64,000 nt of DNA. Source: Streptomyces sp. TN58. Lineage in GTDB: Bacteria; Actinomycetota; Actinomycetes; Streptomycetales; Streptomycetaceae. Under the pieces are notes generated by a model. It did no database searches, was not told the origin of the DNA, and worked only from the letters and a program-made list of their open reading frames with translations. The stretch spans positions 5,214,001 to 5,278,000 of the forward strand of contig NZ_CP018870.1 of assembly GCF_001941845.1 (NCBI RefSeq). The letters run 5' to 3'. Each line of letters opens with the position of its first letter. Positions within the stretch are counted from its first letter, which is position 1. The position numbers and the translations under genes are program-made. Shown here in pieces: positions 14,809-26,241 of the stretch.

Positions 14809-14911
14809 CCCCCTGACGGACCGTCAGCCGGTGTCGGCGGCCCGCCCGCTGGCCTTACAGTCGTCCCGTCCGTCTCAGGACCCGCCTGAGGCCGAGAGAG
14901 TGCGAGCCCCC

Positions 14912-15979
14912 ATGGACGTGCAGAAGAAGCTCGACGAGATCGTCGCGGCCGTCGGCGGCGCCCGGTCCATGCCCATGTCGGCCTCCTGCGTGATCAACCG
15001 CGCCGAGCTGCTCGCCCAGCTCGAAGAGGTCCGCCAGGCGCTCCCCGGCTCGCTCGCGCAGGCCCAGGAGCTCCTCGGCGACCGGGAGCAGATGGTCGAG
15101 GACGCCCGCCGGGAGGCCGAGCGGATCATCGGGGCCGCCCACGACCAGCGCGGTTCGCTGATCGCCGACACCGAGATCGCGCGGCGCTCCCAGGCCGAGG
15201 CGGACCGCATCCTGGAGGACGCCCGCCGGGAGGCCGAGGAGATCCGGGCCGAGGCCGACGACTACGTCGACAGCAAGCTCGCGAACTTCGAGGTCGTGCT
15301 GACCAAGACGATCGGCTCGGTGGACCGCGGCCGGGAGAAGCTGCTGGGCCGCGGCCCGGGCCTGGACGAGGACGGCTACCCGGACGCGGACGCCCCCGAG
15401 CGCAGCCACGACCCCGAGGTGCAGCGGCAGCAGGCGGACGCGTACGTGGACACCAAGCTCGCGACCTTCGAGGCGGTGCTCTCCAAGACCCTGGAGGCCG
15501 TGGGCCGCGGCCGCCAGAAGCTGCTCGGCCGGGTCCCGACGGACGACCTGGGCGTGCACATGGCGGCCCAGGACGCGGCCGCGGGCCAGGGCTCCCGCTC
15601 GGCGAGCGACTCGGACTTCCTGGCGGGCCTGGCGGAGCCGGAGCCCCCGCACGGGCCGGCGCCGGTCCCGGCCCAGCCGCAGCCGGAGCCGCAGTACGAC
15701 GCGTACGCCTACCAGCAGCCCGCCGCCCGGCAGCCGGACGCGTACGCCTACCAGGACCCGTACGCCGGCTACCAGCAGCAGCCGGACCCCTACGGGGCCT
15801 ACCAGCAGCCCGATCCGTACGCGGTCTACCAGCAGCCGCAGCAGACCCAGCACACGCAGCACGCACAGCAGGCCCAGCATCCGCAGCACGCGCAGCAGCC
15901 CTCGCTCGACGAGACCAGCTTCTTCGACACGAGCATGATCAACCTGGACCAGCTGCGCCAGTACGAACAAGGGCGCTGA
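14912..15979 (+). CDS. DivIVA/SepIVA-like coiled-coil protein with internal duplication and QP-rich tail
   Basis: A 355-residue cytoplasmic protein. Residues ~1-115 are charged coiled coil (ELLGDREQMVEDARREAERI) resembling DivIVA and ATP-synthase b-like proteins. Residues 116-147 and 176-207 are a near-duplicate 32-residue segment (DDYVDSKLANFEVVL and DAYVDTKLATFEAVL, both ending KLLGR). The last ~130 residues are low-complexity Q/P/Y (YQQPDPYA repeats) and probably disordered. It is likely a cell-wall-growth or division scaffold; the exact role is not known. A short palindrome and TACAGT (14856-14861) lie upstream and may form its promoter. Confidence 0.85.
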   Translation: MDVQKKLDEIVAAVGGARSMPMSASCVINRAELLAQLEEVRQALPGSLAQAQELLGDREQMVEDARREAERIIGAAHDQRGSLIADTEIARRSQAEADRILEDARREAEEIRAEADDYVDSKLANFEVVLTKTIGSVDRGREKLLGRGPGLDEDGYPDADAPERSHDPEVQRQQADAYVDTKLATFEAVLSKTLEAVGRGRQKLLGRVPTDDLGVHMAAQDAAAGQGSRSASDSDFLAGLAEPEPPHGPAPVPAQPQPEPQYDAYAYQQPAARQPDAYAYQDPYAGYQQQPDPYGAYQQPDPYAVYQQPQQTQHTQHAQQAQHPQHAQQPSLDETSFFDTSMINLDQLRQYEQGR

Positions 15980-22161: not shown

Positions 22162-25100
22162 GTGCACCTCAAGTCCCTGACCCTGCGTGGCTTCAAGTCC
22201 TTCGCCTCCGCGACCACCCTGCGCTTCGAGCCCGGCATCACCTGCGTCGTGGGTCCGAACGGCTCGGGCAAGTCCAACGTCGTCGACGCGCTGTCCTGGG
22301 TCATGGGCGAACAGGGGGCCAAGTCCCTGCGCGGCGGCAAGATGGAGGACGTCATCTTCGCCGGGACCACCGGACGTCCGCCGCTCGGGCGGGCAGAGGT
22401 CTCCCTCACGATCGACAACACCGACGGCGCGCTGCCCATCGACTACGCCGAAGTCACCATCACCCGGATCATGTTCCGCGGCGGCAGCAGCGAGTACCAG
22501 ATCAACGGCGACACCTGCCGGCTGCTCGACATCCAGGAACTGCTCTCCGACTCCGGCATCGGCCGCGAGATGCACGTCATCGTCGGGCAGGGCCAGCTGG
22601 ACTCCGTCCTGCACGCCGACCCCATGGGCCGCCGCGCCTTCATCGAGGAGGCGGCCGGCGTCCTGAAGCACCGCAAGCGCAAGGAGAAGGCGCTGCGGAA
22701 GCTCGACGCGATGCAGGCCAACCTCGCCCGCGTGCAGGACCTCGGCGACGAACTGCGCCGGCAGCTCAAGCCCCTCGGCCGGCAGGCCGCGGTCGCCCGG
22801 CGGGCGGCCGTGATCCAGGCCGACCTGCGCGACGCGCGGCTGCGCCTGCTCGCCGACGACCTGGTCGCCCTGCGCCGCGCCCTGGACGCGGAGATCGCCG
22901 ACGAGGCCGCGCTGAAGGAACGCAAGGAGGCCGCCGAGGCCCAGCTCGCCGGCGCGCTGCGGCGCGAGGCCGAGCTGGAGGAGGCCGTACGGGAACTCAC
23001 GCCGCGGCTCCAGCGGGCGCAGCAGACCTGGTACGAGCTGTCGCAGCTCGCCGAGCGGGTACGGGGCACCGCGTCCCTGGCGGAGGCGAGGGTCAAGAGC
23101 GCGACCGCCCCCGTCGAGGAGGAGCGCAGGGGCCGCGACCCCGAGGACATGGAGCGCGAGGCCGAGCGGATCCGCGAGCAGGAGGCGGAGCTGACGGCGG
23201 CCCTGGAGGCGGCGACCCGGGCCTTGGAGGACACCACCGGACACCGCGCGGAGCTGGAGCGGGAACTGGCCGAGGAGGAACGGCGGCTCCGGGACGCCGC
23301 GCGGGCCATCGCCGACCGGCGTGAGGGTCTGGCCCGGCTGACGGGACGGCTCGGCGCGGCCCGCTCCCGTGCCGGTGCGGCCCAGGCGGAGATCGACCGG
23401 CTCGCCCTGGCGCGGGACGAGGCGCGGACCCGGGCCGAGGCGGCGCAGGCCGAGTACGAGGCCCTGGCCGAGGAGGTCGGCGGGCTCGACGACGACTCGG
23501 CGGAGGCGGACCACGAAGCCGCGCGGGCGGAGCTGAGGGAGGCCGAGGCGGGCCTCGGCGCCGCGCGGGAGGCACTGGCGGCGGCCGAGCGCGCGCGGGC
23601 CGCGGTGTCCGCCCGCCGTGACGCGCTGGCGCTGGGGCTGCGCCGCAAGGACGGTACGGGGGCGCTGCTCGCGGCCCGCGAACGGCTGGCCGGCGTGCTC
23701 GGACCGGCGGCGGAGCGCCTGTCGGTGACCCCCGGCTACGAAGCCGCCGTGGCCGCCGCACTGGGCTCGGCGGCGGACGCGCTGGCGGTGGCCTCTCCGT
23801 CGGCGGCGGCCGGGGCCATCCGCCACCTGCGCGCAGCGGACGCCGGCCGGGCCACCCTCCTGATCACCCCGCCGACCGCCCTCCCGGACGGGGCTGCCGA
23901 TTCCCTCCCGGGTGGGGGTGCCGGGTCCCTTCCGGGTGGGGGCGCCGGGTCTCTTTCAGGTGGGGGTGCCGGCCTCTCCGGCGGGGGTGCCGGGTCCCTT
24001 CCGGGTGGGGCTGCGGGCTTCTCTGGTGGGGGTGCCGGGTCTCTTTCAGGTGGGGGTGCTGGCCTCTCCGGCGGGGGTGCGGGTATGTCGGCGCCCTTGC
24101 CGGGCCAGGGTTCCGGACCTGCTCCGGCCGTGCCGAGCCGCAGTGCGGCGCCCGCAACGGGCGCCGCTGCCGAGGGGCGCGCCGCGGACGCGGGTGGTCC
24201 GGCGGGGCTGCCGGGGCAGGGGATCGGGGTCGGGGCCACTGCGGCGGACGACGCCCAGCCGGGCTCGGGCGCGAGCTCCACGGCCGCGGCGGCGCCGGAG
24301 GCGGTCCCGCCCGCCCGCACCGCGCAGACGGCCGAGGCCCTCGCGGGCCGGCTCCTGCCAGGGCCGGCCGGGAGCGCGGACGCGGCGGCCGCCGCCCCGG
24401 CAGGACAGGGTGAGGCCCGACCGGACTCCGGACCCGACGGGCCCGTACCCGTCACGGCGCTGGTGGCCGGGGACGGCGAGGTGCTGCGGGCCCTGGCGTG
24501 GGTGCTGCGCGACCACGTCGTCGTCGGGACGCTCGACGAGGCCGAGGCGCTCGTCGCACGGTGCCCGGAGGCGGTGGCCGTGACCGTCGAGGGCGACGTC
24601 CTCGGAGCGCACCTCGCGCACGGCGGATCCGCCTCGGCGCCCAGCCTGATCGAGGTGCAGGCCGCCGTGGACGAGGCGGCGGCGGAGCTGGCCCGGCTGG
24701 GCGTGCGGTGCGGGGAACTCGCCGAGGCGCAGGCGGCCGCGCAGGCCCGGCGGCAGGACGCGGCGGCGCTGGTGGACGAGCTCGCCGAGCGGCGGCGCGT
24801 CGAGGAGCAGGCCCGCGCCGGGGTCGCCCAGCAGCTCGGCCGGCTGGCCGGCCAGGCGAAGGGGGCCGCCGGTGAGGCCGAGCGCGCCGCCGCCGCCGCG
24901 GCCAAGGCCCAGGACGCCCTGGAGCAGGCCCTGGCCGAGGTCGAGGAGTGCGCGGAGCGGCTGGCCGTCGCCGAGGAGATGCCGGTGGAGGAGGAGCCCG
25001 ACAGCTCCCGCCGTGACCGGCTCGCGGCCGACGGGGCCAACGCCCGCCAGACCGAGATGGAGGCCCGGCTCCAGCTGCGTACCCACGAGGAGCGGGTCAA

Positions 25101-26241
25101 GGGGCTGGCCGGGCGGGCGGATTCCCTCGACCGGGCCGCTCGGGCGGAGCGCGAGGCCCGGGCACGCGCCGAGCGCCGCCGGACGCGCCGGCGCCACGAG
25201 GCGGACGTGGCCCGTGCGGTGGCCGACGGCTCTCGCCAGCTCCTCGCGCACGTGGAGGTCTCCCTCCTGCGGGCCGACGAGGAGCGCGTCCTGGCCGAGC
25301 GGGCCAAGGGCCTGCGTGAGCGGGAGCTCGCCGACGCGCGCAACAGCGCCCGCGACCTGAAGGGGGAGCTCGACAAGCTCACCGACTCCGTCCACCGCGG
25401 CGAGGTGCTCGGCGCCGAACAGCGGCTGCGCATCGAGGCCCTGGAAGCCAAGGCGCTGGAGGAGTTCGGCATGGAGCCCCGCGCGCTCGTCGCCGAGTAC
25501 GGCCCGGACCAGCCGGTGCCGCCGTCACCGCCGGCCGACGGCGAGGAGCTGCCGCAGGACCCCGAGCACCCGCGCAACCGGCCCGGCCCCTTCGTCCGTG
25601 CGCAGCAGGAGAAGCGCTTCAAGGCGGCCGAACGGGCCTACCAGCAGCTCGGCAAGGTCAACCCGCTCGCCCTGGAGGAGTTCGCGGCCCTCGAAGAGCG
25701 CCACAAGTTCCTCAGCGAGCAGCTGGAGGACCTTCGCAAGACCCGAGCCGACCTCCTTCAAGTGGTGAAGGAGGTCGACGAGCGCGTCGAGCAGGTGTTC
25801 ACCGAGGCGTACCGGGACACGGCCCGGGAGTTCGAGGGCGTCTTCTCACGGCTGTTCCCCGGTGGAGAGGGCCGCCTGGTCCTGACCGACCCGGACAACA
25901 TGCTCACCACCGGCGTCGACGTCGAGGCGCGCCCGCCGGGCAAGAAGGTCAAGCGGCTGTCGCTGCTGTCCGGCGGCGAGCGCTCGCTGACCGCCGTGGC
26001 CATGCTCGTGTCCATCTTCAAGGCCCGCCCCAGTCCGTTCTACGTGATGGACGAGGTCGAGGCCGCGCTCGACGACACCAACCTGCAGCGGCTGATCCGG
26101 ATCATGGAGGAGCTCCAGGAGAGCTCGCAGCTGATCGTGATCACGCACCAGAAGCGCACCATGGAGGTCGCGGACGCCCTCTATGGCGTTTCCATGCAGG
26201 GCGACGGGGTATCGAAGGTCATCAGCCAACGTCTCCGCTGA
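22162..26241 (+). CDS. smc: Chromosome partition protein SMC with a large repetitive insertion in the hinge
   Basis: A 1359-residue condensin ATPase, about 170 residues longer than the usual ~1190. Walker A GPNGSGKSN is at residues 31-39; the signature LSGGERSLTAVAML (~1269) and Walker B FYVMDEVEAALDD (~1293) are intact. Long coiled coils flank a hinge from ~residue 505. The hinge is interrupted from ~573 to ~758 by Gly/Ala/Pro-rich sequence starting with seven or eight copies of a PGGGAGSL-type repeat, then resumes at VPVTALVAGDGEVLRAL and ends with the GGSASAP motif. SMC organises and segregates the chromosome with ScpA/ScpB. GTG 22162 gives the standard N-terminus HLKSLTLRGFKSFA. Confidence 0.97.
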   Translation: MHLKSLTLRGFKSFASATTLRFEPGITCVVGPNGSGKSNVVDALSWVMGEQGAKSLRGGKMEDVIFAGTTGRPPLGRAEVSLTIDNTDGALPIDYAEVTITRIMFRGGSSEYQINGDTCRLLDIQELLSDSGIGREMHVIVGQGQLDSVLHADPMGRRAFIEEAAGVLKHRKRKEKALRKLDAMQANLARVQDLGDELRRQLKPLGRQAAVARRAAVIQADLRDARLRLLADDLVALRRALDAEIADEAALKERKEAAEAQLAGALRREAELEEAVRELTPRLQRAQQTWYELSQLAERVRGTASLAEARVKSATAPVEEERRGRDPEDMEREAERIREQEAELTAALEAATRALEDTTGHRAELERELAEEERRLRDAARAIADRREGLARLTGRLGAARSRAGAAQAEIDRLALARDEARTRAEAAQAEYEALAEEVGGLDDDSAEADHEAARAELREAEAGLGAAREALAAAERARAAVSARRDALALGLRRKDGTGALLAARERLAGVLGPAAERLSVTPGYEAAVAAALGSAADALAVASPSAAAGAIRHLRAADAGRATLLITPPTALPDGAADSLPGGGAGSLPGGGAGSLSGGGAGLSGGGAGSLPGGAAGFSGGGAGSLSGGGAGLSGGGAGMSAPLPGQGSGPAPAVPSRSAAPATGAAAEGRAADAGGPAGLPGQGIGVGATAADDAQPGSGASSTAAAAPEAVPPARTAQTAEALAGRLLPGPAGSADAAAAAPAGQGEARPDSGPDGPVPVTALVAGDGEVLRALAWVLRDHVVVGTLDEAEALVARCPEAVAVTVEGDVLGAHLAHGGSASAPSLIEVQAAVDEAAAELARLGVRCGELAEAQAAAQARRQDAAALVDELAERRRVEEQARAGVAQQLGRLAGQAKGAAGEAERAAAAAAKAQDALEQALAEVEECAERLAVAEEMPVEEEPDSSRRDRLAADGANARQTEMEARLQLRTHEERVKGLAGRADSLDRAARAEREARARAERRRTRRRHEADVARAVADGSRQLLAHVEVSLLRADEERVLAERAKGLRERELADARNSARDLKGELDKLTDSVHRGEVLGAEQRLRIEALEAKALEEFGMEPRALVAEYGPDQPVPPSPPADGEELPQDPEHPRNRPGPFVRAQQEKRFKAAERAYQQLGKVNPLALEEFAALEERHKFLSEQLEDLRKTRADLLQVVKEVDERVEQVFTEAYRDTAREFEGVFSRLFPGGEGRLVLTDPDNMLTTGVDVEARPPGKKVKRLSLLSGGERSLTAVAMLVSIFKARPSPFYVMDEVEAALDDTNLQRLIRIMEELQESSQLIVITHQKRTMEVADALYGVSMQGDGVSKVISQRLR
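23901..24085 (+). repeat. In-frame minisatellite in the smc hinge (21/24-nt units)
   Basis: About eight imperfect tandem copies of a 24- or 21-nt unit related to GGTGGGGGTGCCGGG and TCTCTTTCAGGT. They encode SLPGGGAG, SLSGGGAG, LSGGGAG and FSGGGAG variants. All unit lengths are multiples of three, so the reading frame is preserved. The block is GC-biased with G-rich strand asymmetry, prone to slippage or G-quadruplex formation. Confidence 0.9.

Follow-up and report, generated by a model that had tools for sequence, protein, structure and literature searches.

A hypervariable linker inside the SMC hinge of Streptomyces changes length by in-frame gain and loss of repeated units and, in some lineages, carries dispersed repeats

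Coding minisatellites occur in disordered linkers, where their unit lengths are multiples of three and copy number varies between relatives. Few chromosome organisers are as conserved as SMC proteins, whose hinge is suspected of acting as a DNA gate. Dispersed repeats that lie in frame within protein genes and are translated are exemplified by the Rickettsia palindromic elements (RPE) (Ogata 2000, 2002; as outlined in PMC10969869). In cohesin, FKBP12 and FRB have been inserted in small loops of the Smc1/Smc3 hinge in living cells (Gruber 2006; as outlined in PMC9467508).

Here we analysed a window of 64,000 nucleotides from Streptomyces sp. TN58, whose genome is assembled as one contig of 7,585,034 bp. 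The window contains an smc gene whose hinge is split by a long linker, defined as the residues between the conserved sequences ...GRATLLI and VPVTALVAGD (anchors A and B). The relevant features, in window coordinates, are as follows.

22162..26241, + strand: smc, chromosome segregation SMC ATPase; open reading frame with GTG start, 1359 aa
22252..22278, + strand: Walker A motif GPNGSGKSN of the SMC head; residues 31-39, read in the translation
23638..23865, + strand: first half of the hinge, residues 493-568, ending in GRATLLI (conserved anchor A); Pfam SMC_hinge and an alignment of 39 hinges
23866..24444, + strand: hypervariable inter-subdomain hinge linker, residues 569-761, 193 aa, Gly/Ala/Pro/Ser-rich and predicted disordered; anchors and AF2 pLDDT
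23876..24084, + strand: in-frame minisatellite, units SLPGGGAG / LSGGGAG, about 8 copies; TRF score 291
24085..24444, + strand: linker outside the array, degenerate LPGQG-type units, ending in PDSGPDGP; sequence and comparison with database proteins P0003 and P0004
24445..24774, + strand: residues 762-871, comprising the second hinge half and the beginning of the returning coiled coil (conserved anchor B); alignments, with invariant GGS and GD positions

Both halves of the ATPase head are present (Pfam SMC_N, residues 2-1351, E 2.8e-71), and the PDB matches of the protein are bacterial Smc heads (best E 9.6e-126). The translation contains the Walker A (GPNGSGKSN), signature (LLSGGERSL), and Walker B/D-loop (YVMDEVEAALD) motifs. 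Pfam SMC_hinge (E 9.5e-18) covers residues 510-569 only, i.e., profile positions 2-61 of 116, and ends where the insertion begins; the linker is about 177 aa longer than the 16-aa linker of some Streptomyces. TRF detects the array with periods of 24, 45, and 90, opening the linker and covering its first third; its top score compares with a maximum of 74 in 200 codon-shuffled versions of the linker. A pattern count finds 8 GG[GA]AG-type units, and GC3 is 0.636 in the array (first 66 linker codons). These data bear out the first-pass annotation, which had described a hinge split by an in-frame insertion opening with a tandem array. It had placed the insertion at 23875-24440; the site was right, but the linker is slightly wider. 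A G-quadruplex was rejected as the driver of slippage, the single motif being located outside the array.

Two other genes of the window also encode repeat-rich tails. The product of 1336-2094 is a putative HU-like nucleoid protein with a long Lys/Ala repeat tail (KKATAKKT-type) and many degenerate in-frame tandem repeats, and 14831-15979 encodes a coiled-coil-like protein with a Q/P/Y/H-rich repeat tail containing 9- to 39-bp arrays.

The hinge of S. tendae (L045), which has a 16-aa linker, gave a confident model (pLDDT 86.6) whose best PDB match was the Geobacillus SMC hinge 5h69_B (E 4e-12, TM 0.70). In this fold, the linker position lies between both halves of the hinge domain, and from this homology the linker would project from the hinge surface. 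The AF2 model of the window hinge was weak (mean pLDDT 62), with SMC hinges as its best PDB matches (4u4p_A, E 6e-4). The linker comprises model residues 91-283, and residues 101-240 scored 33-43, consistent as a prediction with the flexibility that had been proposed for the insert. Secondary structure in the linker was confined to one short helix (240-253, pLDDT about 60) and to residues 264-266, also helical. A folded inserted domain was rejected on the scores of residues 101-240, helix 240-253 being the main hint of order.

The long linker of the window is one case of a genus-wide pattern. From 121 evenly drawn Streptomyces genomes, 114 had a hinge match and 109 loci were fetched, five genomes (G002, G114, G039, G119, and G046) being left out for fragmentary or split matches; 107 loci had both anchors, the second being missing in G012 and G008. 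The 78 named smc loci are the best of 569, and seven of them lack an anchor. Across the 107 loci the linker ranged from 14 to 348 aa (median 43), that of the window being the sixth longest, and in every one of them it was in frame and free of stops. The protein outside the linker hardly varied, with 1160-1177 aa (near 1168 aa) in 86 of 87 complete genes; the exception was L162, with an 873-aa core. Other Actinomycetes were represented by 79 of the 127 non-Streptomyces genomes with a match, namely, 60 that were fetched after choice by hand, with most long open frames included, and 19 already in the set. Two of these (G209 and G230) lacked an anchor, and the remaining 77 had linkers of 16-71 aa (median 18); among the 48 unused genomes are nine from family f25, whose open frames span 1181-1182 aa. 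Linkers of at least 40 aa were found in 54/107 Streptomyces versus 5/77 other Actinomycetes. On a core tree computed with FastTree only, which 101 of the 107 rows entered, long (at least 40 aa) and short linkers switched at least 17 times, and neighbours differed two- to three-fold (L170/L184, 275 versus 96 aa; L129/L130, 193 versus 97 aa). No description of a hypervariable SMC hinge loop in Streptomyces was found in the titles and abstract starts of open-licence PMC papers.

Some loci call for separate comment. The short linker contains W-P-x-L-P in 16/77 non-Streptomyces Actinomycetes versus 0/107 Streptomyces, possibly an ancestral contact that Streptomyces lost. In G012, the sole smc hinge match found (L133; C1, at about 8.645 Mb of a 9.03-Mb contig) breaks off inside the linker: the N-terminal half continues into sequence containing a stop, and neither a second hinge half nor a C-terminal part was found in the following 3 kb. 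Either the linker was the site of a rearrangement close to the contig end or the assembly may be at fault. The linker of S. violaceusniger NBRC 13459 (L050) is 856 nt long, which is not a multiple of three; long linkers resembling it in sequence, in G055 (333 aa) and G096 (348 aa), are in frame, and L050 probably reflects a sequencing frameshift.

Length changes were also evident between close relatives, i.e., the best 120 of 7999 protein matches plus the query (the window's own protein is counted twice, as query and as database copy; species names of database proteins are NCBI's labels). The core was exactly 1166 aa in 111 of these 121. Among the matches listed, 110 close relatives gave 65 pairs with at least 99% core identity, and 44 of these pairs differed in linker length. 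In P0005 and P0010 the cores are identical (1165 residues compared; 1166-aa cores) and the linkers measure 188 and 127 aa. The difference is a clean 61 aa bounded by two EDPAAGGPAVLPG direct-repeat copies and, judging by this arrangement, is best read as a deletion between the EDPAAGGPAVLPG repeats. Array units by pattern count, among the matches listed, numbered 0 (P0036, P0037), 1 (P0015, P0018, P0019), 2 (P0006, P0008), 4 (P0004), 8 (window), and 13 (P0003), an order by number and not by phylogeny. Among the 43 linkers that are 60 aa or longer, the TRF score exceeded all 20 of the linker's own codon shuffles in 22 and failed to do so in the other 21. The length polymorphism anticipated by the first-pass annotation thus exists even where cores are identical, and alignment of the hinges of close relatives shows an insert that is neither identical nor of fixed length. 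A fixed clade-wide insertion was rejected, since members of one clade, and even near-identical proteins, have linkers of different length. Length, in sum, varies by in-frame gain and loss of repeated units while the remainder of the protein hardly varies. Slippage at replication, or recombination between direct repeats, would generate these changes, and in the window's own lineage the minisatellite route alone appears.

GC-rich tandem repeats are prone to mis-assembly, and with one locus broken in the linker (L133) and another out of frame (L050), mis-assembled or collapsed repeats or a pseudogene might be suspected. Against such an artefact, all 107 linkers are in frame with no stop, the window genome is one 7.585-Mb contig, and P0028 and P0046, each encoded on a 7.43-Mb contig, differ in linker length (153 versus 118 aa); this reading is close to refuted.

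The polymorphism of near-identical proteins would also be expected if linker length were adaptively tuned, altering hinge opening or DNA entry, with repeat changes giving heritable in-frame variants and no on/off switching. In line with this, DNA passes the cohesin hinge in vitro, and rapamycin-linked FKBP12/FRB in the hinge loops block cohesion (both according to an excerpt of PMC9467508). The lengths are nonetheless scattered with no obvious optimum, tree neighbours being two- to three-fold apart, and we regard adaptive tuning as unlikely.

Several linkers of other species contain peptides translated from dispersed Streptomyces DNA repeats, for which we coined the names E1 and E2. For E2, a 77-nt stretch of the L169 linker (G074) matched 27 plasmids, all from Streptomyces and mostly in part (2/27 covered at least 80%); the best places were under helix-turn-helix genes in 21/27, outside annotated genes in 5, and under a hypothetical gene in 1. 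The E2 24-nt core was found in 56/121 Streptomyces genomes (up to 167 copies) and the E1 28-nt core in 66/121 (up to 519 copies), with 0 hits for the reversed-pattern controls. A longer form from the L190 linker (E1long) had matches of 80-90% identity in 5 Streptomyces plasmids; 4 of these matches overlap no annotated gene, and the fifth is in a record that carries no annotation. In the 107 linkers, repeats were present in frame in 17: E1 in 12 (at most 5 mismatches of 27, the weakest, L165 and L202, having 5), E1long in 2, and E2 in 3. Ten codon shuffles per linker gave 0 matches and the rest of the 5-kb regions gave 1, and the genomes of the 17 repeat-bearing linkers hold 10-188 copies of the matching core. 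Additional linkers with perfect cores (0 mismatches) were L374 and L376, each with both E2 cores, and L389, with E1.

In L376 (226 aa), the 3' half of E2 is present in 7.1 tandem copies of 51 bp that are 93% alike, the first copy being E2's own 3' half and the whole being in frame throughout. Capture and minisatellite growth are thereby linked in one gene, and the arrangement points to capture of E2 followed by amplification. Some lineages have a linker with in-frame dispersed repeats, part of one of which has been tandemly amplified. As for E1, all 13 linker matches with at most 6 mismatches share one strand and frame, in keeping with a single ancient insertion that was later lost several times; on the core tree, parsimony by itself requires 10 changes for E1 (with 15 rows labelled) and 2 for E2. 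E1 does not account for the longest linkers, since the 14 that carry it or E1long measure 24-95 aa and 11 of these stay under 50 aa.

An E2 peptide gave no tblastn match to plasmids and a reverse-E2 peptide gave three records (E 0.2-2), the DNA-level search doing better. The predicted fold of E2 has an inner stem (z -1.93) that 12/200 shuffles equalled, and a known RNA family was rejected, with none at the gathering threshold for L376, L190, L169, or the window. Nine Streptomyces plasmids (H6-H14) have a 49-nt part of E2, at 96% identity, where helix-turn-helix genes are annotated, and E2 may accordingly be translated in other proteins too. Titles and abstract starts of open-licence PMC papers yielded no earlier description of E1 or E2, and the excerpt of PMC4681348, on REP of E. 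coli, contains neither.

The multicopy nature of E1 and E2, their in-frame presence in 17/107 linkers, and the amplified part of E2 in L376 could mean that the linker serves chiefly as a place where dispersed repeats, selfish or repair driven, can land safely, as RPE do in Rickettsia genes, with arrays as later decay or amplification. Set against this are the 90/107 linkers with no recognisable E1 or E2 at the thresholds used, including that of the window, whose single match to a core has 6 mismatches and is no better than chance, like those of six other linkers. The window genome holds 0 E1 and 2 E2 cores, and the candidate that its linker is itself a dispersed repeat of that genome was rejected, as the linker DNA has, besides itself, only short weak matches there (best E 2e-6 over about 45 bases). 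Linker length was likewise not predicted by the E2 load of the genome (rho 0.16, p 0.10), and E1 linkers are mostly short. We consider a role mainly as a landing site improbable.

Alternatively, the linker could be a functional disordered region that binds a partner or promotes SMC clustering via short motifs, e.g., PHPAPSRD. An E2-like peptide occurs in the linker of 55/121 and the core of none of the close relatives (best 120 of 7999 matches plus the query), and in the diverged E2 copies of L364, L365, and L366, 3-4 of 5-6 changed codons are synonymous, versus 27% of possible single changes. These three copies are, however, related to each other; the doubtful copies in L132 and L370 have 2 of 6 changed codons synonymous; the peptide pattern has 0 matches in P0001-P0051, the window and its nearest relatives among the matches listed; and no motif common to different clades was seen. 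A functional region of this kind is very improbable. We give slightly more credence, while still thinking it quite unlikely, to the linker as a domestication site, at which extragenic repeats would be captured in frame and amplified as minisatellites, and some translated peptides such as PHPAPSRD selected as disordered modules tuning hinge opening or partner binding; condensin gate properties would then evolve through repeat capture.

The composition of the linkers, assessed in the 66 of at least 30 aa, departs from that of the other frames. Basic residues made up 5.2% in the true frame versus 18-30% in frames +2, +3, -1, and -3 and in shuffled DNA, and 14.4% in the whole SMC, and of the three + frames, the true one had the least Arg in 63/66 linkers. 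Acidic residues amounted to 10.4%, versus 2-5% in other frames and shuffled DNA, and hydrophobics were weakly reduced (true frame lowest in 37/66). GC3 was 0.82 in linkers versus 0.92 in the flanks, and lower in 62/66. Together, the low GC3 and few basic residues suggest that codon bias is relaxed and that charge is seemingly controlled; the composition argument is not unique, as antisense frame -2 is also poor in basic residues (6.3%). The low basic content would make sense if stray binding of DNA close to the hinge is avoided.

Overall, the linker is probably an inter-subdomain loop that is disordered, hypermutable, and structurally tolerated, with constraint on its frame and, it seems likely, its composition, but not its length. 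Its length and sequence turn over fast in a protein whose other parts keep a nearly constant length, which argues for tolerance and not for a length-specific role; the suggestion of the first-pass annotation that the loop could alter dimerisation or DNA entry received no support. The hinge dimer would still work since the loop would project from the surface, and selection would maintain the frame and a non-basic character (no stray DNA binding) and set no length, which would then be close to neutral. According to the excerpt of PMC8410768, smc is deletable in S. venezuelae and the phenotype is called "rather mild" even when hupS and smc are both mutated, which fits relaxed constraint; loss of SMC affects replication and the position of oriC during germination (PMC13121528, in excerpt). 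Several points count against a tolerated loop: the retention of the E2-like peptide in so many close relatives may mean function, the E2 load is not predictive, and nearly half of the longer linkers (21/43) stay within the TRF scores of their shuffles. Hinges that differ mainly in one loop form a natural series and a ready-made test of that loop's role, and the in-frame capture and amplification of dispersed repeats offer a base-level view of one route from non-coding repeats to protein in bacteria.

Compared with known systems, the Streptomyces hinge has the same fold as that of bacterial Smc-ScpAB (5h69, Geobacillus; 1gxl, T. maritima), with the insert placed between the domain halves, and it differs from that of the 77 other Actinomycetes in the reach of its linker (16-71 aa in the latter, 14-348 aa in the 107 Streptomyces). 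The FKBP12/FRB inserts are engineered, eukaryotic, and folded, whereas the Streptomyces linker is natural, bacterial, and predicted disordered. Like RPE, E1 and E2 are dispersed, multicopy, and in frame within an ORF; unlike RPE, they are of other sequence and host, were studied here in a single hypervariable loop, that of SMC, and include one copy that has been part-amplified. Finally, in contrast to typical coding minisatellites, the Streptomyces array belongs to a core ATPase of chromosome organisation and sits inside its globular dimerisation domain.
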